Shown here: positions 17,255 to 30,932 of the stretch, one piece after another | Numbering within the stretch: position 1 is the stretch's first letter | Layout of the letters: each line of letters begins with the position of its first letter | From: a virus | Reading direction: 5' to 3' (one strand) | Virus record (IMG/VR): IMGVR_UViG_3300027898_000020 | Coordinates: 1 to 39,100 of that record | Length of the DNA: 39,100 bases | Program-made: the position numbers and the translations under genes | Notes under the pieces: model-generated | The model's database searches: none | What the model was told of the DNA's origin: nothing | What the model saw: the letters and a program-made list of their open reading frames with translations, nothing else

Positions 17255-20200
17255 ATGGCAATGAACCCCGCTGCGAAAGACCCCAATGCTTTCGCTTCCA
17301 CAGGTCTGAGTGGCGGGGGGGCAAGCAACGCCATCCTCGGCGTTCCGCAAAATCCGAATATGCCGCGCGGGCCTCAACCCGCCAGTAATCCGCAGACACC
17401 GTTGGCGCAGGCCAACGACGCGGCATTCGGCCCAGGGTACTGGAACACGATCAGCGCCAACGGTGGCTCCGGGCTGGCTGCTCCCGACTATGCATCCCAG
17501 ATCGCCGCGCACAACGACGCTATGATCCAGCAGATGCAGTCGCAGGCTCAACAGCCGCAGCAGACCCCGCAGCTGTACTACGGCGTTGGACCCAACAACG
17601 AGCTGCAAGTGGGCGATCAAGTCGTACCCATGGGGGACAACCCCACATCGGCGGCACAAGCCATCCAGCAGAACCCTGGGGTTGGAATAACGCAGTCGAC
17701 GCTGAAGCCTGGGTTTCGCCCGGTGGCAGCGAGCGACATCAATGAGTACCTGAGTGGTATCCAGCACGGCACACTGAGTGACTTGTATCAAGGGGGTAAA
17801 GAACTGGCCATCCGCACTCCCGGTGCGCTGCTGGGGTCGCTGGGTGCTGCATCCAAGTGGGCTGGCGCTGATACCGTGGGCGCGGGGCTGCAAGGTATGG
17901 GTCAGTCCGTTGACCAGATGACCGGTGCGGATCAGCCCGTTGACACGCTGGGTCGTGGCGCGGTGGGTAAGTGGTTCGTCAACAACATGGCGGGTGCAGC
18001 GCAGATGGTGCCGTTCATCGCCCAGAGTTTCCTGATGCCTGAGACGGCAGTGCCAAAGGCGCTCTCTATACTGGGGGACGTGGCGCTCAATTTCGGGCTG
18101 TTCGGCAGTCAGGCAGCGCAGGAGAAGAAAGAGTCTCTGATCGCCCAGGGCGTGGACCCCGCACAGGCCAACAAAGCCGGCTGGGTCGACTTCTTCTCCA
18201 CCGGTGGTGGCATGATGGCCATGGGTCACGCCAGCCACGCAGCCCTTGACGGCACATACAGCGGTGCACAGCAGATTGTGGCCAAGCTCAAACAAGCAGT
18301 AGGCAAAGGCGCCATGACGGCCGAAGAAGCCGCCGCCGCGGTGACCAACCCCGCACTCCTGGCACGCACAGCCGCAAACCTCGCGGGCAGTACAGCGGTT
18401 CAAGGTGCGGCCATGTCCGGCATGGCTGGCGCCAGTGCAGCGTCCAACAACGCGTACGGCGGTCAACACCAGGATGTCGGCGACGCGATGGCGAGTGGCC
18501 TGGGTACCGGTCTGTCCCTGGGCGTGCTTACATCCCCCTTGGGTGCTGTGCATACATGGCAAGATTCTGGCCGCCGGCGGGCACTGGGGGAAGCGCTCAA
18601 TACGCCATCCGAACAGGTGGACTTGCTCAACGCGCTGAAGCAACAGCAAGCCGCAAAAACAATCACCCCCGAAGTGGGCGCATTGGCCGGCGCCAAGCCG
18701 GCGCAAGACTGGGCGCAAGGTGTTACCGCCAAGGCATTCAACGCGGCTGATTCCAATCAGTTCCGTGCGGATCAAGCGGCGCAAGCCCAGGCCCAACCCG
18801 AGAGTTTCAGCCAGCCATATACACCCCCGGAAGCGCCGGCTGCCCCCGCCGCACCGCAGGAAAACGCAGCGGCCCAGCTCCATGCAGTCAAGGTAGATGA
18901 CACGCTCAAAGCTCTGGGTGTCGGACGCAAGGCACAGAAGGCCGTGCGCGCGGTGGCGGAGGATGCCGTTGCTTCTGGCATCGACCTGGAAAGCCCACAG
19001 GCGGACACGCTGGTTAAACTGCTGAAGAAGGGCACCAAGGGTGCTGCTGGTGCACAGGCTGAACTCGACCGACTCAAAGGACAAAAAGATGGCGTATCTG
19101 GACAACCCAACGATGGAATGCCTCCAAGCACTGGAGCTGGGGGTACTGACGTTGGAGGAGGCGTGGCGGATGGAAAACCTGCGGTTCCTGCCGGAGAGCC
19201 AGCAGGGGGATTGGCTGGTGCCGCCCCCGAGCCTGCAGCCCGCGGCGGAGAAGCTGTGGCTCCTGAGCGCGTGGACGCCGGAGCTGCGCCAGTAGCACCC
19301 AAGGCGGAAATTCCTGATTTTTCGGGCTCGCAGTATCAGCGCGCGCCGTCTACGCTGCTTGAGCGCCCAAGTGGGTCAGCATCGCTGGGGCATCTACAGG
19401 ATAAGTCTTCCCCGGAACACATCCAGGCAGCGCTTGAAGCCGGCCGCCTGACGCCTATTGAAGCAGAACGCGCGCTTGAAGAACTGCGTAAACCCCCTGA
19501 GCAGACGCGCAATTTGTCGCGTGCCACAGAGGAAGAAACTGGACAGGGGCGACTGTTCAAGGGGGAAGTATTCCCCAAGCGGCCGAAACTCCCCAAGGAT
19601 ACACAGCGGGCACGCGCTGCGGTAGACGCAGGCACACCTGAACCGGCACCAGCCAGCCAAATCACAGCGGTTGAAGCCAAGCAGTCGCGCAAACGCCAGG
19701 AGACGGAAGCCGCAGTCGAAGCCGCCAAATCGGAGGAACAGAAGTCCGCGGAGGCAGCGGCTAAGGACGTGACTGTTCCGCAAGATAAGTGGGAAGCAGC
19801 ATTCGGCGATACCCACGGAGAGCGTATCCACCGCGCCCTGAGCGGAGAAACCTTTGGCGCCATCGGGGCAGACCACGGCGTTCAGGAAGACGCGGTGCGT
19901 AAATCACTCAAACGCGCTACGCCGGACTCCATTGACAAGGCGGTAGTGGATGGAAAAATTGACGCGCTGACTGGTGCCGACATGAAGCGCCAGTTGGAAA
20001 AAGCCCAGAAGGGCGCAGTGGTGCGCAAGACTGCGGCTGAAGCCAACGCGGACGGAGGTTCTTCTGCCGGCGTGCATGAAGACTCCACTACAGATCAAAT
20101 CAAAGAAATTGTGGCGGACAAAGGGACGTTCATCACGGCGAGCACGAAGCCCGATGAGACAGCCGGCAAACTCAAGCCAAAAGAAACGCTGATCGCCAAG

Positions 20201-23200
20201 ACAGCCCAGCAGTGGGAAGAACAGCGCCGGGCCAACGCTGGCCCCAAAGGCGACAGCGCCAAATATGACGAAGCCGTAGCAAAGCTCAAAGAGCTGGCTG
20301 CTCAGTGGGGCAAAGCACCCAAATCGGACGCGGAAAAACTTGCCGACGTACAGCGCCAGATCGCCGCAGCGGTCAAAGACGGCGGAAAAGCACCAGCCAA
20401 GCTGGAAGCCAAGCGCAAAGCGCTGCAGGAAAAACTCGATGCTGCAGATGAGGAGGCTGAAAGCGAGGAGGCTGTGGATGACACGGGCGCGCGCGACCAG
20501 GATGAAAAACTGGATGCGCTGGACCAAGAATATGGCCAAGGTATGCAGTTTGGCAAGGGTGCCGGCCCAGCTGAAGGCGGACCCGCGTACACCGCAGCTG
20601 GTTTGAAGAAAGAAATTTCCGACTTTATGGGTGGCCGGGAGCTGCCCGAAGACCGCATCCACATCGTGGACAGCGCCGAAGACCTGGAGCATCTGCCTGA
20701 TCTGGCTGTCGCCATCAAACACGGCGACGCGTTTGGGTGGACCAAGGATGGGCGCGTGGTCATGATCGCCGACCGCATCCCGTCAGGTGAAGGTCGTGCC
20801 AAGTTCATGCACGAAGTGGGCACCCACCTGGGGCTGGAACACATCATGGATTCCGGTGACATCGACCTGCTGGCCATCCGCATCGCCAAGTGGGCTGACC
20901 GCATGGACGGCTCCCAGGAGTCGGAGCTGGCCCGGCGCGCGTTGGAGCGCGTGGGCGCTGCGGGAACCAAAGAAGACCAGACATCCAGCGAGACCGTAGC
21001 GTATTTCCTGGAGGAAGCCACCAAGGCAGGCATCGACCCGTCCAACCCGCGCGGCAAAGGGGAATTCACCGGCTGGCTGCGCCGCATCGCGCAGTCGTTC
21101 AAGCAGGCTGTGGCCAAGTTGCTGAACCTGGACCTGAAAAGCATCACCCCCCAGGACATCGTGGATATGGCCTACGGTGCGGCGCACTTGGCGTACGACA
21201 AGGCCCACCCAAGTAGCGAACGTTCACTGAAGCTGTCTTCCGACGAACGGGCGTTTTTTGAGTCTATTTTCAACAGCCCGGCCGACTTGGAAGGTTTGCA
21301 TGATGAGGTACCCTCTGCCCGAATGGAGGGTGGATTGCTCCGCTATGATCCTGCGGATCGAGAAGCACTCGAAGACTATGTAAGCAGCATGTGGGGGGCA
21401 GGAAAAAAATCGTACGGCGGGGAAGGTGCGGCGTCGTTACCCAAGTCTTTTGCCAACGCAGGTCGCAAATTTATTGACCGCCTTCGCACGTCGCCGGACG
21501 GCGCCGTAAAGTTCGGCAAGAACATCGAGCGCAATATATCCAAGCTGCCTGAGCGCTACCAGGAGCCAGCACGCAACATCACGGACACACTCAACCGGTG
21601 GACCAGCTCCGCACTGGACAAGATGGTGTTTACCAAGGACTTGGTGGAGCGTGGCGTCAAGCGCGGCATGACTGCGCTGCACACCTTTGATGAGCACCGC
21701 GAAGCCCGCGATGCACTGGCCGGTCACTACCAGAAGATGGCATACGACCACATTGAGCCGGTGCGCAACTTCAGTGATGCCGAAAAGCGCGCGCTGAGTG
21801 ATTTCCTGCAGCAGAGCACACTAGACAAGCAGTGGGGGTACGGTGAAAAAGCCGCTGGGTCCGCCAAGTCCATGTACGAAGCGCTGTCTCCTCGCGCCAA
21901 GAAAGTGGCGGAAGGGGTGTTCTCCCATGGGGACACCATCCTGAAGGAAAAGAAAGGTGCGATCCAGGAGCTGTGCGACAACTTGTATGGTTCCATGATT
22001 GATGACGCCAAGGCGGCTGGTCACACCAACGTGGTGGCTGAACTCAAGGCGGAGCGCGACGGCTTCCTGAAAAAATACAACCGGCTGATGGCCTTGGATG
22101 AAGGCAACCCGTACGTATCGCTGCAGCGGCGCGGGGACTTTGTGGCGGTTGGCAAGTCAGAAGAATACCGTCAAGCGGAGGCGGCTGCCCAGGCCAAAGG
22201 CGCGACCAAGGCAGACCGGGACAGACTGCAGGAAATGCAGACCGACCCCAACCATTATCTGGTGTCTTCAGCCCAAAGCATCGCAGAGGCCAAAGTGTTG
22301 CGCCAGAACATGCGCGATGCGGGATTTCCCGCAACGGGGGATCACACGTACTATCGCCCCAAGTCGGAGTGGGCGCGCGACGGCGCTGGGGGAGTGATCG
22401 CCGGTATGGGGCGCCTGCGCAACCAGCTCGACATGATGGCCCGGGAGTCTGCGAACCCGACGGACCGGGCGCGCTACGCGTCCATGAATCACTTGTTGAC
22501 CAACATGTGGCTGGACGCCCTGAGCCAGCGCAGCGCGCGCAAGGCGGAGATGCGTCGCCTGGGTGTGCACGGCACCATGGACGTGGTGGACTCGTTCCGC
22601 CAGTCGGCTGCCGCGGATGCGCATTTCATCTCCGGCATCAAGTACAACGACAAGATGCTCACTGCGCTCAAACAAGCCCGGGAGCAAGCCGACCGCGGCG
22701 AAGGTGAAGACCGCACCATCAACCTGAACATGATGGACGAATTTCTAAAACGGCACGAACAGAGCACAGCGGCTGTACCGACTCCGTGGGCCAACAAGAT
22801 CACCAAGACGGTGGCGCTGTGGCAGATCGCCACCAGCCCGGCGCACTACATCGGCAACCTGATGCAGCCATGGACCATGACGCTACCCTATCTGCAAGCC
22901 AAGCATGGGTACGGCGCGGCAACCAGTGAATTCTTCAAGGCATACAAGGAGATCGGCGGAATCCTGGCTAACACCGGCGTGCTCAACTCGCTCAAAGTGG
23001 ACGACATGCCCGCTGACGTACGCCAGCCGATGAAGCGACTGCTGGAACTCGGGCGCCTGGACATCGGCATGAACACTGAATACACGTCCATGGACCTGAA
23101 CATCATCCCGAAAAATGCAGCGGAACGCAGTATTGCCGCAGCGGCTGACCGGATTACCCAGGCTTCACTCAAGATGGAATCGCTCAACCGGCTCGCCAGC

Positions 23201-24304
23201 GCGGCCGCAGCCTACCGGCTTGAACTCAAGCGCACGGGGGACTCGGAGCGCGCCATGCACTACGCAGCTGACGTGGTGGCAGAAACCCACGGCGACCACA
23301 GCCGCGCCAACGCGCCACGGGTGTTCAACAGCGGGTTCGGCAAGGTAGCGCTGCAGTTCCGCAAATTCCAGCTGGTGCAGCTGACCCAGATGGCCAAAAT
23401 GATTGGCAACCTGCGCAATGCTGATCCTGTGGAGCAGGCAACGGCCGTTCGCATGCTGGGGTATACCTTGGCACACGTGGCAGCACTGGGAGGTGCGGTG
23501 GGTATGCCGGGTTTTGGAACATTCAGTTCTGCGGCGCAAAACATCCAGCATTTGCTCGGCCAAACCCAGGGCGAAGACTGGGAAACCCAGATTGAAAAAG
23601 CCGCTGGTGGACGCGAGATGGCCCAGTTGTTGCTTCGCGGTCTGCCTGGACTGGCCGGCGTAGACCTTACCAGCAAGGTAGGCTACGGAGACATGCTGGG
23701 CATTGCGCCCTACACGGATGTGGACGTGACAGACCGCAAGAGCGTGGTGGACGCCATCGGCCAAGTCACTTCAGGTCCGTTCGGCGGCCTGATGGGGCGC
23801 GCAGCGCAGTCGCTGCACCACGTGCTGGTGGGCAACTACTACAAAGGTTTGGAAGGGTTGATGCCACAAGGTATCGCCAACGTGATGAAGGGTGCACGCG
23901 AGCTGAATGAAGGTGTGACCAACACCAAGGGTGACAAGCTCATGAACATCAACGCTGGCGAAGCGATGTTGGAAGCCCTCGGATTCGAGCCGTCCAGCAA
24001 GGCCATGCAGGCCAACGAAACTGCGTCCATGATCAACTCGACAGAAGGGTTCAAAGACCGTCTGGAGATTCTCAAGGAGCGCTACGCCAACGACGCGCGC
24101 AGCGGGGGTGATGTGTCATCCACAGTCAAGAACCTCAACGCACTGCGGGCAGAGATGCAGGAGCGCGGCTTCCGGCCGGTGTCCCTGGGCGATTTGATCA
24201 AGGCGCCAATGGAGCAGCTTAAACGTGAGATGTTCACGACGCCCGGCGGTGTGCAGTACAACCCGAAAGAATCTGGGCGCGCTGTGGCCCAGCTCCCGAA
24301 GTGA
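17255..24304 (+). CDS. Giant polyvalent ejection protein with metallopeptidase-like motif
   Basis: A 2349-residue protein, the largest of the phage. In order: a Gln/Pro/Asn-rich N terminus (1-140); an Ala/Gly-rich, partly membrane-active region (about 180-370, with MAGAAQMVPFIAQSFLMPE); a long linker (about 490-760) that contains an overprinted gene; an HTH-like segment (about 845-890); charged coiled coils (about 950-1085); and a metallopeptidase-like segment with HEVGTHLGLEH at 1186-1196. Then follow helical domains typical of phage large polyvalent proteins, including PYVSLQRRGDFVAVGKS near 1619 and VALWQIATSPAHYIGNL near 1852. Such proteins are packed in the head and injected with the DNA. 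The motif is HExxxH, one residue longer than canonical HExxH. The gene ends at a shared terminator. Confidence 0.8.
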   Translation: MAMNPAAKDPNAFASTGLSGGGASNAILGVPQNPNMPRGPQPASNPQTPLAQANDAAFGPGYWNTISANGGSGLAAPDYASQIAAHNDAMIQQMQSQAQQPQQTPQLYYGVGPNNELQVGDQVVPMGDNPTSAAQAIQQNPGVGITQSTLKPGFRPVAASDINEYLSGIQHGTLSDLYQGGKELAIRTPGALLGSLGAASKWAGADTVGAGLQGMGQSVDQMTGADQPVDTLGRGAVGKWFVNNMAGAAQMVPFIAQSFLMPETAVPKALSILGDVALNFGLFGSQAAQEKKESLIAQGVDPAQANKAGWVDFFSTGGGMMAMGHASHAALDGTYSGAQQIVAKLKQAVGKGAMTAEEAAAAVTNPALLARTAANLAGSTAVQGAAMSGMAGASAASNNAYGGQHQDVGDAMASGLGTGLSLGVLTSPLGAVHTWQDSGRRRALGEALNTPSEQVDLLNALKQQQAAKTITPEVGALAGAKPAQDWAQGVTAKAFNAADSNQFRADQAAQAQAQPESFSQPYTPPEAPAAPAAPQENAAAQLHAVKVDDTLKALGVGRKAQKAVRAVAEDAVASGIDLESPQADTLVKLLKKGTKGAAGAQAELDRLKGQKDGVSGQPNDGMPPSTGAGGTDVGGGVADGKPAVPAGEPAGGLAGAAPEPAARGGEAVAPERVDAGAAPVAPKAEIPDFSGSQYQRAPSTLLERPSGSASLGHLQDKSSPEHIQAALEAGRLTPIEAERALEELRKPPEQTRNLSRATEEETGQGRLFKGEVFPKRPKLPKDTQRARAAVDAGTPEPAPASQITAVEAKQSRKRQETEAAVEAAKSEEQKSAEAAAKDVTVPQDKWEAAFGDTHGERIHRALSGETFGAIGADHGVQEDAVRKSLKRATPDSIDKAVVDGKIDALTGADMKRQLEKAQKGAVVRKTAAEANADGGSSAGVHEDSTTDQIKEIVADKGTFITASTKPDETAGKLKPKETLIAKTAQQWEEQRRANAGPKGDSAKYDEAVAKLKELAAQWGKAPKSDAEKLADVQRQIAAAVKDGGKAPAKLEAKRKALQEKLDAADEEAESEEAVDDTGARDQDEKLDALDQEYGQGMQFGKGAGPAEGGPAYTAAGLKKEISDFMGGRELPEDRIHIVDSAEDLEHLPDLAVAIKHGDAFGWTKDGRVVMIADRIPSGEGRAKFMHEVGTHLGLEHIMDSGDIDLLAIRIAKWADRMDGSQESELARRALERVGAAGTKEDQTSSETVAYFLEEATKAGIDPSNPRGKGEFTGWLRRIAQSFKQAVAKLLNLDLKSITPQDIVDMAYGAAHLAYDKAHPSSERSLKLSSDERAFFESIFNSPADLEGLHDEVPSARMEGGLLRYDPADREALEDYVSSMWGAGKKSYGGEGAASLPKSFANAGRKFIDRLRTSPDGAVKFGKNIERNISKLPERYQEPARNITDTLNRWTSSALDKMVFTKDLVERGVKRGMTALHTFDEHREARDALAGHYQKMAYDHIEPVRNFSDAEKRALSDFLQQSTLDKQWGYGEKAAGSAKSMYEALSPRAKKVAEGVFSHGDTILKEKKGAIQELCDNLYGSMIDDAKAAGHTNVVAELKAERDGFLKKYNRLMALDEGNPYVSLQRRGDFVAVGKSEEYRQAEAAAQAKGATKADRDRLQEMQTDPNHYLVSSAQSIAEAKVLRQNMRDAGFPATGDHTYYRPKSEWARDGAGGVIAGMGRLRNQLDMMARESANPTDRARYASMNHLLTNMWLDALSQRSARKAEMRRLGVHGTMDVVDSFRQSAAADAHFISGIKYNDKMLTALKQAREQADRGEGEDRTINLNMMDEFLKRHEQSTAAVPTPWANKITKTVALWQIATSPAHYIGNLMQPWTMTLPYLQAKHGYGAATSEFFKAYKEIGGILANTGVLNSLKVDDMPADVRQPMKRLLELGRLDIGMNTEYTSMDLNIIPKNAAERSIAAAADRITQASLKMESLNRLASAAAAYRLELKRTGDSERAMHYAADVVAETHGDHSRANAPRVFNSGFGKVALQFRKFQLVQLTQMAKMIGNLRNADPVEQATAVRMLGYTLAHVAALGGAVGMPGFGTFSSAAQNIQHLLGQTQGEDWETQIEKAAGGREMAQLLLRGLPGLAGVDLTSKVGYGDMLGIAPYTDVDVTDRKSVVDAIGQVTSGPFGGLMGRAAQSLHHVLVGNYYKGLEGLMPQGIANVMKGARELNEGVTNTKGDKLMNINAGEAMLEALGFEPSSKAMQANETASMINSTEGFKDRLEILKERYANDARSGGDVSSTVKNLNALRAEMQERGFRPVSLGDLIKAPMEQLKREMFTTPGGVQYNPKESGRAVAQLPK
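19089..19295 (+). CDS. Overprinted 68-residue protein nested in ejection gene
   Basis: A small gene in the +1 frame, wholly inside the giant ejection gene. Its ATG follows AAGGA at seven bases. Hand counting gives 61 of 69 codons (88%) with G or C in third position, against 29 of 69 (42%) for the ejection frame over the same bases, so the coding bias sits in the nested frame here. The product looks globular: Met-Glu-Cys and Leu-rich helices (CLQALELGVLTLEEAWRMEN, then FLPESQQGDWLVPPP, then AAEKLWLLSAW). Over the same bases the giant protein is a disordered Gly/Ala/Pro linker (residues about 612-680). I do not know its function. It may be an old separate gene that lay between two ejection genes now fused. 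Confidence 0.72.
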   Translation: MAYLDNPTMECLQALELGVLTLEEAWRMENLRFLPESQQGDWLVPPPSLQPAAEKLWLLSAWTPELRQ

Positions 24305-27470: not shown

Positions 27471-28439
27471 TTAGTCGTCAAAGTCGATGCCGTCGATGTC
27501 CAGATCAGGGTCTTCATCCACTACGGGGACAGCCTTGACCGGTGCGGGCTCGGGCTTGGGTTCCGGCTTCGGTTCAGCCTTGGGCTTCGCTGCAGCCCTG
27601 GGTTTGGCAGGGGCCGGTGCGGGCTCAGCAGGCGTTTCCGCTTTTGCGGGTGCTGCAGTCTCAGCGGGTTCCTCCGTGGACGCACCGACTGCGGGAGCGT
27701 CATGCCCCAGCAGGCCGGCTACGCCAACGATGTCTTCCGTGGTCTGGGACTCCATGGTCTCCTTGATCTGGGCGTAGTCATCAGCCGACAGGAAACCCAT
27801 GGGCTTGAACGTCAACTTGGGCGACTCTGCTTCCTGGTCAAAGGCGATCTTGGTAACCACCATGTTGTACGCCACACCGCGCTTAGCCAACATCTGGCCA
27901 TACTCACCCAGAGCCTTGATGGATGCCGGCGGTACGCGGATCAGATGCGGGTCGTTGAGTTGACCGTTGGGTACCACAGCAATGCGAACGCTGTCCTGGC
28001 ACGCCTTGCCCTTGGTAGCGATGCCCTTGTCATTGACAGCAGAGCCCCAGGCGTTGTGCGGGCAGACAGCGCAGCTGGTAGCCTGTTTGTGTTCTGCGTC
28101 CGCGGCCGGTGTGGTCCCGTTGGCAGAGTAGCAGTCGGGCTTCTGGGCCTTGTCGATGGCGTTGGGGTCGTACTTGTTGATGTAGAAGACCTTGGACTTG
28201 TCCTTGTTGGCCTTGACCAGCACCACTTCGATGCTGGTTGCAGGGCTGTCCGGGTCTTTCGGGTTGGGCAGCACAACGCGCTCACCGTCGCGCACCACGG
28301 CAAACACCTTGCCCTTGATGGAGATGACAGGGAAGCCGCCGCCGGCGTGGGCAGTCAGGTCTGCATTCAGCGCAGCGACGTCGATGCCAGCCAAGTGAGC
28401 GGGAAGTTTTGCGGATTCAAATGGGATCAGGTTAGACAT
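27471..28439 (-). CDS. Probable ssDNA-binding protein with acidic tail
   Basis: A 322-residue protein. The start at 28439 follows AAGGA; an ATG in frame 24 bases upstream has no site. The N-terminal two thirds is a globular beta-rich domain with four Cys (C103, C123, C126, C147; the central pair in SCAVCPHNAWGS) that could hold a zinc ion. After an Ala/Pro/Lys linker, the last residues are DEDPDLDIDGIDFDD, the acidic tail expected of phage SSBs such as T7 gp2.5, which contacts polymerase and helicase. It stands just upstream of the primase-helicase gene. The function is inferred from architecture and operon position; no strict family match is claimed. Confidence 0.7.
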   Translation of the reverse strand: MSNLIPFESAKLPAHLAGIDVAALNADLTAHAGGGFPVISIKGKVFAVVRDGERVVLPNPKDPDSPATSIEVVLVKANKDKSKVFYINKYDPNAIDKAQKPDCYSANGTTPAADAEHKQATSCAVCPHNAWGSAVNDKGIATKGKACQDSVRIAVVPNGQLNDPHLIRVPPASIKALGEYGQMLAKRGVAYNMVVTKIAFDQEAESPKLTFKPMGFLSADDYAQIKETMESQTTEDIVGVAGLLGHDAPAVGASTEEPAETAAPAKAETPAEPAPAPAKPRAAAKPKAEPKPEPKPEPAPVKAVPVVDEDPDLDIDGIDFDD

Positions 28440-28458
28440 ATTTTGGGTTTCCTTGAGG
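28440..28458 (-). promoter_or_regulatory. Repeated translation-initiation leader, copy 1
   Basis: On the minus strand CTCAAGGAAACCCAAAA lies directly before the SSB start. The same leader stands before the two preceding genes of the operon. It contains the AAGGA ribosome binding site with a long A-rich spacer. Confidence 0.7.
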
Positions 28459-28466
28459 TTCACGTG

Positions 28467-28943
28467 TTAAACAACTTGCCAATCATCAGCCAGCACATCA
28501 GTCTGTGAGGCCAGCCAAGGGACGAACTTGGCGTCCGCGGTCTTCATGCCGATCCAGGGCGCAGTGACAATATCCTGGTCGTCCATGCCAGCGGTGTCAG
28601 CAGAAACATCCCAGTCCGACGCGAACACGTGTGTCAGCCACATGCCCTTGCCGTTCCAGCCAGCGCGCGCCACCTTCTTCCCCCGCTTCAAGGCCTCGAT
28701 GGCAAGACCGAACGACATACCGGATGTGGCGTGGTACGCGTTCTCGAACTGAGCCTTCGGGCTCCATGAGATGTAGCCAACATGGCGCGAGTCGTTGGCT
28801 TTTCCGCCGTCCTGGTACTCGACCAGATAGCCTTCGTCCGCGCCGTTCTCGTTTTCAGGGAGAGCCCATCCGCGGTAGGTGTTGTATTCCGCGCGGCTCA
28901 TGGGCCGCGCCAAGATGATCTTGGTTCCGATGTAGCGTTTCAT
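28467..28943 (-). CDS. tad2: DUF2829 protein, Tad2-like anti-Thoeris candidate
   Basis: A 158-residue protein of two parts. Residues 76-158 are a complete DUF2829 domain: MSFGLAIEALKRGKKVARAG at its start, GWNGKGMWL, and the C-terminal PWIGMKTADAKFVPWLASQT followed by DVLADDWQVV. DUF2829 includes Tad2, shown in other phages to bind and remove the cyclic ADP-ribose-type signal of Thoeris defence. Residues 1-75 are another small domain (GYLVEYQDGGKAN, then GYISWSPKAQFENAY), which also occurs alone or fused in other phages. The gene lies between coiled-coil and SSB genes in the early arm, suitable for an anti-defence protein. The family call is firm; activity in this phage is inference. Confidence 0.85.
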   Translation of the reverse strand: MKRYIGTKIILARPMSRAEYNTYRGWALPENENGADEGYLVEYQDGGKANDSRHVGYISWSPKAQFENAYHATSGMSFGLAIEALKRGKKVARAGWNGKGMWLTHVFASDWDVSADTAGMDDQDIVTAPWIGMKTADAKFVPWLASQTDVLADDWQVV

Positions 28944-28964
28944 GTTTTGGGTTTCCTTGAGTTA
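28944..28964 (-). promoter_or_regulatory. Repeated translation-initiation leader, copy 2
   Basis: On the minus strand TAACTCAAGGAAACCCAAAA runs from the stop codon of the coiled-coil gene to the ATG of the DUF2829 gene. It is nearly identical to the leader of the SSB gene. Confidence 0.7.
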
Positions 28965-29348
28965 GCCGTTGTTGCGGCGGATTGCGACGGTGCGTTCGGT
29001 GCGGTAGTTCACACCTGGGGGCACATCCCCGTGCTCGGCAGCGTATGCGTCCACGGCGGTCTTGTTAACCCGGACGTCCATGAGATCGAAGGCTTGGTTG
29101 GCCCGCACGTGCGCCATAAACGCATCCTTGTCTGCGACGGTTGCGCTGGTGCGAGAGCTGATGTATGCAGTGCCGGCCGCTGTGCGCATGCCCTCACCAC
29201 CCAGCTTGTCCAGGGCGACCATGAGCTGGCCTTCCAGTTTGGTCATTTTTTCCTCGATGACGGCTTCCTCGGCCTTGCGGGCCTTGGAGATTTCCGCCTT
29301 CTTGTCGCGCAGGCTGATATACAGCTCGACGGCTTCTGAGAGTTTCAT
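28962..29348 (-). CDS. Coiled-coil phage protein, replication operon, unknown
   Basis: A 128-residue protein that begins with a long charged coiled coil (residues 1 to about 50, VELYISLRDKKAEISKARKA, then MTKLEGQLMVALDKLG). A compact domain follows (GMRTAAGTAYISSRTSATVA, later MDVRVNKTAVDAYAAEHGDV and PPGVNYRTERTVAIRR). The layout, helix then a strand-rich C terminus ending in a basic strand, is shared by a common phage family found near replication genes, which I know only as hypothetical. It resembles Siphovirus Gp157-type proteins in plan but I do not claim homology. The stop overlaps the leader of the DUF2829 gene. Confidence 0.75.
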   Translation of the reverse strand: MKLSEAVELYISLRDKKAEISKARKAEEAVIEEKMTKLEGQLMVALDKLGGEGMRTAAGTAYISSRTSATVADKDAFMAHVRANQAFDLMDVRVNKTAVDAYAAEHGDVPPGVNYRTERTVAIRRNNG

Positions 29349-29366
29349 TTTTTCTTCCTTGAGTTA
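29349..29366 (-). promoter_or_regulatory. Repeated translation-initiation leader, copy 3
   Basis: On the minus strand TAACTCAAGGAAG followed by A-rich sequence links the helicase stop codon to the coiled-coil gene start. It shares TAACTCAAGGAA with copy 2. Confidence 0.65.
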
Positions 29367-30932
29367 CGCTTCAACACCATTGTTCTCTTTGACCATATCC
29401 AAGAGAACGCCTTGCATGGACTGCTTTGCTTCCAGCCTCTTATAGATTGTTCGCTCCACGGGTGTACCCGCGATATGCACAATCACTGTCTTTTTTGTTT
29501 GACCCGGACGCCGAACCCGTGCGCAAGCCTGTTCGTATGTCTCATTCGAGTGAACAGGAGCATACCAGACAATTGTGGTCGCGGCGGTCAAAGTCAACCC
29601 ATGGCTCATTGTTTGCGCGTTGGCCAGCAGTACCCGGGGTTCGTCCTGGTTTTGGAATGCTCCAAAAATACGGTCTCGCTCGGTTTTGCTGGTGTCGCCA
29701 TTAACAACCTCCACGGTGAAGTACTTGAGTAATTCCGCCTGGATCGATTCCAGCGCGCCGGTCAAGGGGACAAATACTATCACCTTTCCTTCGGACTCCT
29801 CGATAATTTCCTTCACCAGCTCCAGCCGGGGTTTGGACGGTATGATGATGTTCTCGCCGTTGGTGCCGTACGCCACGCCGCACGCAATCTGGATCAGCTT
29901 GTTGGCCTTGACGGCTTCGTTGACGGCCAGAATCTGGCCACCAGAGGCTTCCGTTGACAGCCGGGCCAGCATGTCCTTGTAGGCTTTGTCCTGTTCCTTG
30001 GTCAGTTCCACTTCCCGTGTGATCACCGTTTGCTCGGGGAGGTCCACGCAATCATCCAGCGCGAAGCGGATGGCCGGCTGCATCGCCTTGAACACGGTGT
30101 CATTCGCAGTAGGTCGAGCAATCCACTTGAAGGGCGTCAATTGCCGCATCACGGCGTCCTTGAAGCGCCCGAAATACTTGGGCACTTCCACGTTGTCGGG
30201 GGTAATAAGGCGGCACTGAGCCCACGCGTCGGTAGGGGAGTTGGGCGTAGGTGAGCCAGTCATCCCCCACACGCGCCGGGGTGACTGCTTGTTGCATATC
30301 AAATTCAAAGTTTCCCATCGGTCTGTTTGTGCGTTTCGCGCCATTGCCAGTTCGTCGACGCAGATGACGTCAATGTCGGGGCGCGTTGCAAGTTCCTTCT
30401 TTATGATGGCCAAGCCATCAATGTTGATGATATAAACGTCCGCGTGCTGCTTGAGCAGCTTGATGCGGCGATCGCGTGATCCATAGAGCACGTTGTAATC
30501 CAGGTGCGGGAACGTCATGAATACCGCGTCCGCCCAGGTCCGCTCCATGGTAGACAGCGGGCACACAACCAGCATGCGCTTGGCCTGCTTGACCGTGCGC
30601 AGATAGTCGAACGCCCACAGTGCGCTGTTGGTCTTGCCGGTGCCCATCCCGTTGAGACAGAACGCCCGGCGGTTCATGGAGAGAAAAGACGCGGTGGTTC
30701 GCTGCACCTCAAAAGGACTGTGCCGCCCGTTGGCCAAGGGGTACTGGTAGTGGATCGGCATGGGGTCCGGTATATCGAAACCCAGGTTTCGCAGTACCCG
30801 GGTTTCATCCGGGCGGTGCGGGAGTGCCACTACGTGACTGTTGACCTGCTTGGCTGTCGTGATGACTGACGTAATCCTTGAGGGGTGCCGCAGTTTCATG
30901 ACCACGGCTTTTTTCTTTTTGTGGATGTACAT
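29364..30932 (-). CDS. SNF2-type DNA helicase / translocase
   Basis: A 522-residue superfamily 2 ATPase. Walker A is GMGTGKT at residues 95-101; the DEAH-like box is DELA with D193 and E194. The GMTGSPTPNSPTDAW segment is motif III. In the second RecA domain, NAQTMSHGLTLTAATTIVWY and QACARVRRPGQTKKTVIVHI are motifs V and VI of the SNF2 group. The start at 30932 overlaps the upstream stop (TAATG); a second ATG at 30899 is possible. Phage SNF2 proteins accompany PolA and VRR-NUC modules and are thought to help replication or recombination. Confidence 0.88.
   Translation of the reverse strand: MYIHKKKKAVVMKLRHPSRITSVITTAKQVNSHVVALPHRPDETRVLRNLGFDIPDPMPIHYQYPLANGRHSPFEVQRTTASFLSMNRRAFCLNGMGTGKTNSALWAFDYLRTVKQAKRMLVVCPLSTMERTWADAVFMTFPHLDYNVLYGSRDRRIKLLKQHADVYIINIDGLAIIKKELATRPDIDVICVDELAMARNAQTDRWETLNLICNKQSPRRVWGMTGSPTPNSPTDAWAQCRLITPDNVEVPKYFGRFKDAVMRQLTPFKWIARPTANDTVFKAMQPAIRFALDDCVDLPEQTVITREVELTKEQDKAYKDMLARLSTEASGGQILAVNEAVKANKLIQIACGVAYGTNGENIIIPSKPRLELVKEIIEESEGKVIVFVPLTGALESIQAELLKYFTVEVVNGDTSKTERDRIFGAFQNQDEPRVLLANAQTMSHGLTLTAATTIVWYAPVHSNETYEQACARVRRPGQTKKTVIVHIAGTPVERTIYKRLEAKQSMQGVLLDMVKENNGVEA

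Follow-up and report, generated by a model that had tools for sequence, protein, structure and literature searches.

What a second small domain is doing on a predicted nucleotide-signal sponge is the question raised by one gene of a viral genome. We analyzed a stretch of 39,100 nucleotides from this virus (the window), in which a Tad2-like domain, of the kind that captures Thoeris signals, is joined to an N-terminal domain within a single open reading frame. Sponges are compact, single-purpose proteins that belong to unrelated families. Finding one domain on three such families with its core unchanged, as described below, suggests an unstudied shared step in signal capture.

The two-domain gene and its operon

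The open reading frame at 28467-28943, for which the original prediction had stated no strand, is real and lies on the minus strand; it starts with the ATG at 28943 and encodes 158 amino acids followed by a stop, while the plus-strand reading of the same interval is interrupted by stops. All three motifs quoted in that prediction (GYISWSPK, PWLASQT, and DDW) were found in the protein. The match to phrog_872 spans residues 1-158 (E = 8e-63), and an AlphaFold2 model of the window protein built with 55 homologues had a mean pLDDT of 93. Homologue alignment and this model together place a short linker, TSG, at residues 73-75 (28719-28727, minus strand), separating an N-terminal domain of residues 1-72 (28728-28943, minus strand) from a Tad2-like domain of residues 76-158 (28470-28718, minus strand).

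Reading the sequence upstream of the start, we found a likely ribosome-binding site, AAGGAA, at 28953-28958 (minus strand), inside the leader CTCAAGGAAACCCAAAACATG. A common leader, CTCAAGGAAACCCAAAA[CT]ATG, stands ahead of both the two-domain gene (28943-28963) and the next gene (28439-28463). Because the two genes have this leader in common, the likely start of the next gene, a 330-aa open reading frame, is ATG 28439 and not GTG 28463; this downstream neighbor (27471-28439, minus strand) has no assigned function. On the other side, the gene is preceded by a 128-aa neighbor (28962-29348, minus strand; phrog_13900, with a weak match to DUF7307, Pam3 gp33-like) and by a DNA helicase of the same operon (29364-30932, minus strand; phrog_62, E = 9e-97).

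The original prediction had placed the gene in a replication operon, and correctly so: DNA helicase, exonuclease, DNA polymerase, and a primase/helicase-like protein are among its neighbors. This setting is the argument for reading the protein as a replication factor that matches its operon and not as an anti-defense sponge. We consider that reading very improbable, since in other phages the same gene adjoins lysis, capsid, or virion RNA polymerase genes, and often Acb4-family genes, and since the pocket motifs described below are retained. Elsewhere in the window, the virion genes end with a 2349-aa protein (17255-24304, plus strand) that has a C-terminal match to phrog_10089 (DarB-like antirestriction).

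The Tad2-like half and its predicted ligand

Profile, fold, and the pocket motifs that it retains all support placing the window protein in the Tad2 family. The C-terminal 83 residues had been said to carry the whole DUF2829/Tad2 pattern, and PF11195 indeed aligned over positions 1-73 of its 73 (E = 6e-25), with a score of 87.9 bits for residues 76-158 against a cut-off of 25. PF11195 is the sole Pfam family above cut-off in the protein, from which the PF13876 domain is absent. By sequence, the window protein matched ModTad2, SPO1 Tad2, SptTad2, HgmTad2, and AcrIIA7 in the PDB. Comparison of the model with solved structures agreed with this assignment: residues 75-158 aligned with ten Tad2 entries at Z 10.0-11.2, against 4.0 for the highest-ranking unrelated row, and the significant PDB matches of the model were solved Tad2 chains only.

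Tad2 is a homotetramer with its ligand pockets between protomers, and the gcADPR pocket includes the beta1-beta2 loop and the beta4-alpha3 loop, among others (review, PMC12043709). Alignment places the corresponding motifs of the window protein at residues 95-102 (GWNGKGMW, beta1-beta2 loop; 28638-28661, minus strand) and residues 143-149 (WLASQTD, beta4-alpha3 loop; 28497-28517, minus strand). Among the 55 homologues, G95-M101 are invariant, as are W143, Q147, and D149. The predicted pocket thus appears to be kept, its GWNGK and W-x-x-SQTD loops being invariant or nearly so across the family.

HgmTad2 and SptTad2 belong to a cyclic-dinucleotide-binding subgroup of Tad2 that has a long beta2-beta5 insert, and SptTad2 binds cGG. 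The two pocket motifs are 47 residues apart in the window protein, 48 in both SPO1 Tad2 and ModTad2, and 60 in SptTad2, so the long insert of this subgroup is not found in the window protein. An ADPR-type ligand is favored because the insert is short, as in SPO1 Tad2 and ModTad2, and because SPO1 Tad2 does not bind 3'3'-cGAMP (PMC11722364). Judged from these features, the Tad2 half is a predicted sponge whose ligand is probably an ADP-ribose-type Thoeris signal. Some members of the family have ModTad2-like loops (SVND, SGSD), so ligands may differ within it.

Assembled as other Tad2 proteins are, the Tad2 half would hold its signal, an ADP-ribose-type Thoeris molecule that is most likely gcADPR, in pockets made by the GWNGK and W-x-x-SQTD loops; with the signal sequestered, the host effector would stay off. 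Among 30 bacterial genomes with proteins carrying the N-terminal domain, a ThsB-like match was present in 10 and a ThsA STALD domain in 1. As these numbers are low, other signals may be the target, and the counts neither prove nor exclude Thoeris in that role.

The N-terminal domain and its fusion partners

Modeled alone with AlphaFold2, residues 1-72 reached a pLDDT of 96. We found no meaningful Pfam match, no PDB sequence match, and no confident fold relative for these residues; support for the domain comes from this model and from its conservation across partners. NCBIfam searches returned nothing. Two identities were considered and not adopted. A tandem Tad2 repeat, suggested by the echo of the C-terminal Tad2 half in GYLVEY..DGG..GYISWSP, was not supported by hhalign (probability 0.4% against Tad2) or by Foldseek (E = 2.3 to an SPO1 Tad2 chain, not significant). 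For a Tudor, SH3, or chromodomain identity, the best match (6au3; Z 4.0, or 2.9 for the domain alone) was too weak.

The fusion itself is common and does not appear peculiar to this phage: it makes up the whole of phrog_872, is present in gp49 of phage N4 (50% identity to the window protein over residues 4-155), and is the commonest arrangement of the N-terminal domain. Relatives are encoded by at least 593 viral stretches, far beyond chance, and 89 phage records have a match covering at least 80% of the window protein. In PHROGs, phrog_872 is entered as function unknown. At the N4 locus (L082, 5603-6456), gp49 consists of the N-terminal domain and Tad2 and has no PF13876 match, and the PF13876-type gene is gp48; the Pfam label "N4 Gp49" for PF13876 is misleading. 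In Klebsiella phage myPSH1235 (L384), the last part of the major head gene and the sequence just past it hold a Tad2-like stretch (2501-2857) that is mostly unannotated.

To obtain proportions of fusion partners, we used 51 loci from genome contigs that were retrieved with the N-terminal domain alone as query. The partner was Tad2 in 33 of these loci, crAss001_48 in 10, Acb4-like in 3, Tad1 in 1, and Tad2 together with crAss001_48 in 1; the remaining 3 had none, and one of these 3 is truncated. A sample of short forms of the domain, in 24 clusters, gave 15 with Tad2, 4 Acb4-like, 2 with crAss001_48, and 3 others, two of which resemble crAss001_48 by eye. Part of our wider locus sample (L139-L184) was retrieved by a Tad1-fusion query and is therefore biased.

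Fusions with Tad1 occur in two lineages. The first consists of an Acinetobacter prophage (L105) and about 32 close relatives; the C-terminal half of the L105 protein matches the solved Tad1 structure 8kbb (E = 6e-17), and its Pfam hairpin match falls just below the cut-off. In the second, independent lineage (L291), the Tad1 half is 52% identical to SBSphiJ7 Tad1. Only such relatives have the Acb2/Tad1 hairpin domain; the window protein did not match it. A further match of the Tad1 half of L105 is to chain I of PDB entry 8y6v (gp184, 230 aa; E = 2e-7), which we take to be a phiKZ capsid protein.

In other phages the N-terminal domain is fused to PF13876, and the profile of this partner matches the Acb4 structure 9e4w (E = 1e-7). 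SPO1 Acb4 is a member of PF13876, all 8 of the 8 homologues tested bound 3'3'-cGAMP, and Acb4 is structurally unlike Acb2, Tad1, and Tad2 (PMC11722364). One single open reading frame (L122) has the Acb4-like domain upstream of the N-terminal domain, which can thus precede or follow its sponge. Acb4 is also found next door: 36 of 159 non-redundant loci have a separate same-strand Acb4-family open reading frame no more than 1.5 kb away, most of them at 130 bp or less, whereas the rest of these loci, 1.36 Mb in all, gave 2 Acb4-family matches. In phage N4 the Acb4-family gene, gp48, precedes gp49. A profile search of the window found no Acb4-like gene.

The partners of known function are all nucleotide-signal sponges and come from three structurally different families (Tad2, Tad1, and Acb4). 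Fusion with Tad2 is already widespread; what is new is that the N-terminal domain is common to Tad1 and Acb4 partners as well. We found no description of a domain common to Tad1, Tad2, and Acb4 in the literature searched, and key Tad2 papers lie outside that coverage, so novelty is unproven.

Candidate roles and comparison with known sponges

We favor, with a probability of roughly 0.7, a modular sponge in which the Tad2 half would take up an ADP-ribose-type signal and the N-terminal domain would be a shared accessory with a constant target, a role read from its fusion partners. Residues K8, G38, Y43, Y57, S59, W60, and P62 of the domain are at or near 100% conservation whatever the partner. 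Because these core residues are constant and the partner folds are unrelated, we infer a constant target and not an interface with one particular partner. As an interchangeable accessory of several unrelated sponge families, the domain would have its own binding site for something constant, whether a moiety that nucleotide signals share or a common partner in the cell. The original prediction had allowed the N-terminal domain a second activity, and this idea gains from the same domain, core unchanged, on Tad1 and Acb4; the domain may bind a ligand, a protein, or something else.

If the constant target is a moiety of the signals, the N-terminal domain would be a second ligand-binding unit for a nucleotide or nucleotide-derived signal, and one protein could take two kinds of alarm molecule. 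We hold this to be plausible, if tentative. It is consistent with the nature of the known partners, with K8, Y43, Y57, and W60, which resemble a small-molecule site and stay the same across partners, and with a few N-terminal domains that apparently stand alone. However, such copies are few and include truncated or mis-started ones, the L122 domain is fused to an Acb4-like domain, and neither a fold relative bearing a nucleotide site nor a link to a known binding fold was established for the N-terminal domain.

If the target is instead a cellular partner, the domain may dock the sponge on a protein or location that does not vary, for example a defense synthase, an effector, or a phage replication site, and so raise its local concentration. 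That a single domain serves structurally unrelated sponges speaks against a role bound to one partner fold and so for docking, as does its position before or after the sponge. Still, phages of very different hosts, crAss-like phages included, carry the domain, so a docking target would need very wide conservation, and the domain has no known partner protein; we find docking possible, though rather doubtful. On sequence grounds, a nucleotide-type ligand seems slightly ahead of a protein target.

Loci L103, L135, and L255 have N-terminal domains that are 87-92% identical in DNA (89% for L135/L103 and 92% for L135/L255), each before a different, unrelated C-terminal part, demonstrating ready recombination. 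Parsimony on a tree of the domain gave 31 partner changes, a hint only, as the tree is built on about 70 columns. These exchanges would suit a folding, solubility, or assembly aid that has no target of its own and has moved between small accessory genes through recombination. We think this unlikely, since mean column conservation in the N-terminal domain (67%) exceeds that in the Tad2 half (50%) and since near-invariant polar and aromatic residues would be unusual in a mere spacer.

Beyond the modular sponge, the N-terminal domain might be a general accessory of nucleotide-signal sponges, binding a feature that the signals or the defense machinery have in common, and crAss001_48 (PF21825) might be an unrecognized sponge family; we would put the odds of this broader idea somewhat short of even. 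crAss001_48 is joined to the N-terminal domain more often than Tad1 and Acb4 combined. That this commonest partner after Tad2 has no assigned function counts against the modular-sponge reading. It showed no relation to the Tad1 hairpin by hhalign; its PDB matches were partial ubiquitin matches and were discarded. If the idea is true, the partner list of the domain is a catalogue of sponges, with crAss001_48 and the AWHC-type domain of Rhodoferax phage P26218 as candidates by company. In the latter phage (L134, 2879-3421), the N-terminal domain is joined to an unrecognized C-terminal domain with AWHCNIAMSAFDAG, for which we found no PHROG or PDB match. N4 is a classic phage of E. coli K-12, and its Acb4-family gp48 beside the fusion protein gp49 makes the idea testable in a standard laboratory system.

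Compared with known systems, the window protein is closest to Tad2 (PF11195; SPO1 8sme/8smf, ModTad2 9eib, SptTad2 8wjd, and HgmTad2 8kbj), with 39-50% identity over the residues aligned with 75-158. It differs from these solved proteins in its 72-residue N-terminal domain, which they do not have, and from the cGG-binding SptTad2 in its short beta2-beta5 insert. Within phrog_872, where N4 gp49 has both domains in the same order and at full length, it is an ordinary member. The Tad1 fusions (L105, L291) have the N-terminal domain and its core residues in common with the window protein, but their sponge half is Tad1, of a different fold. Acb4 (PF13876, anti-CBASS 4) likewise shares the N-terminal domain by fusion in some phages, while its fold and its ligands, cyclic dinucleotides, differ from those of Tad2.
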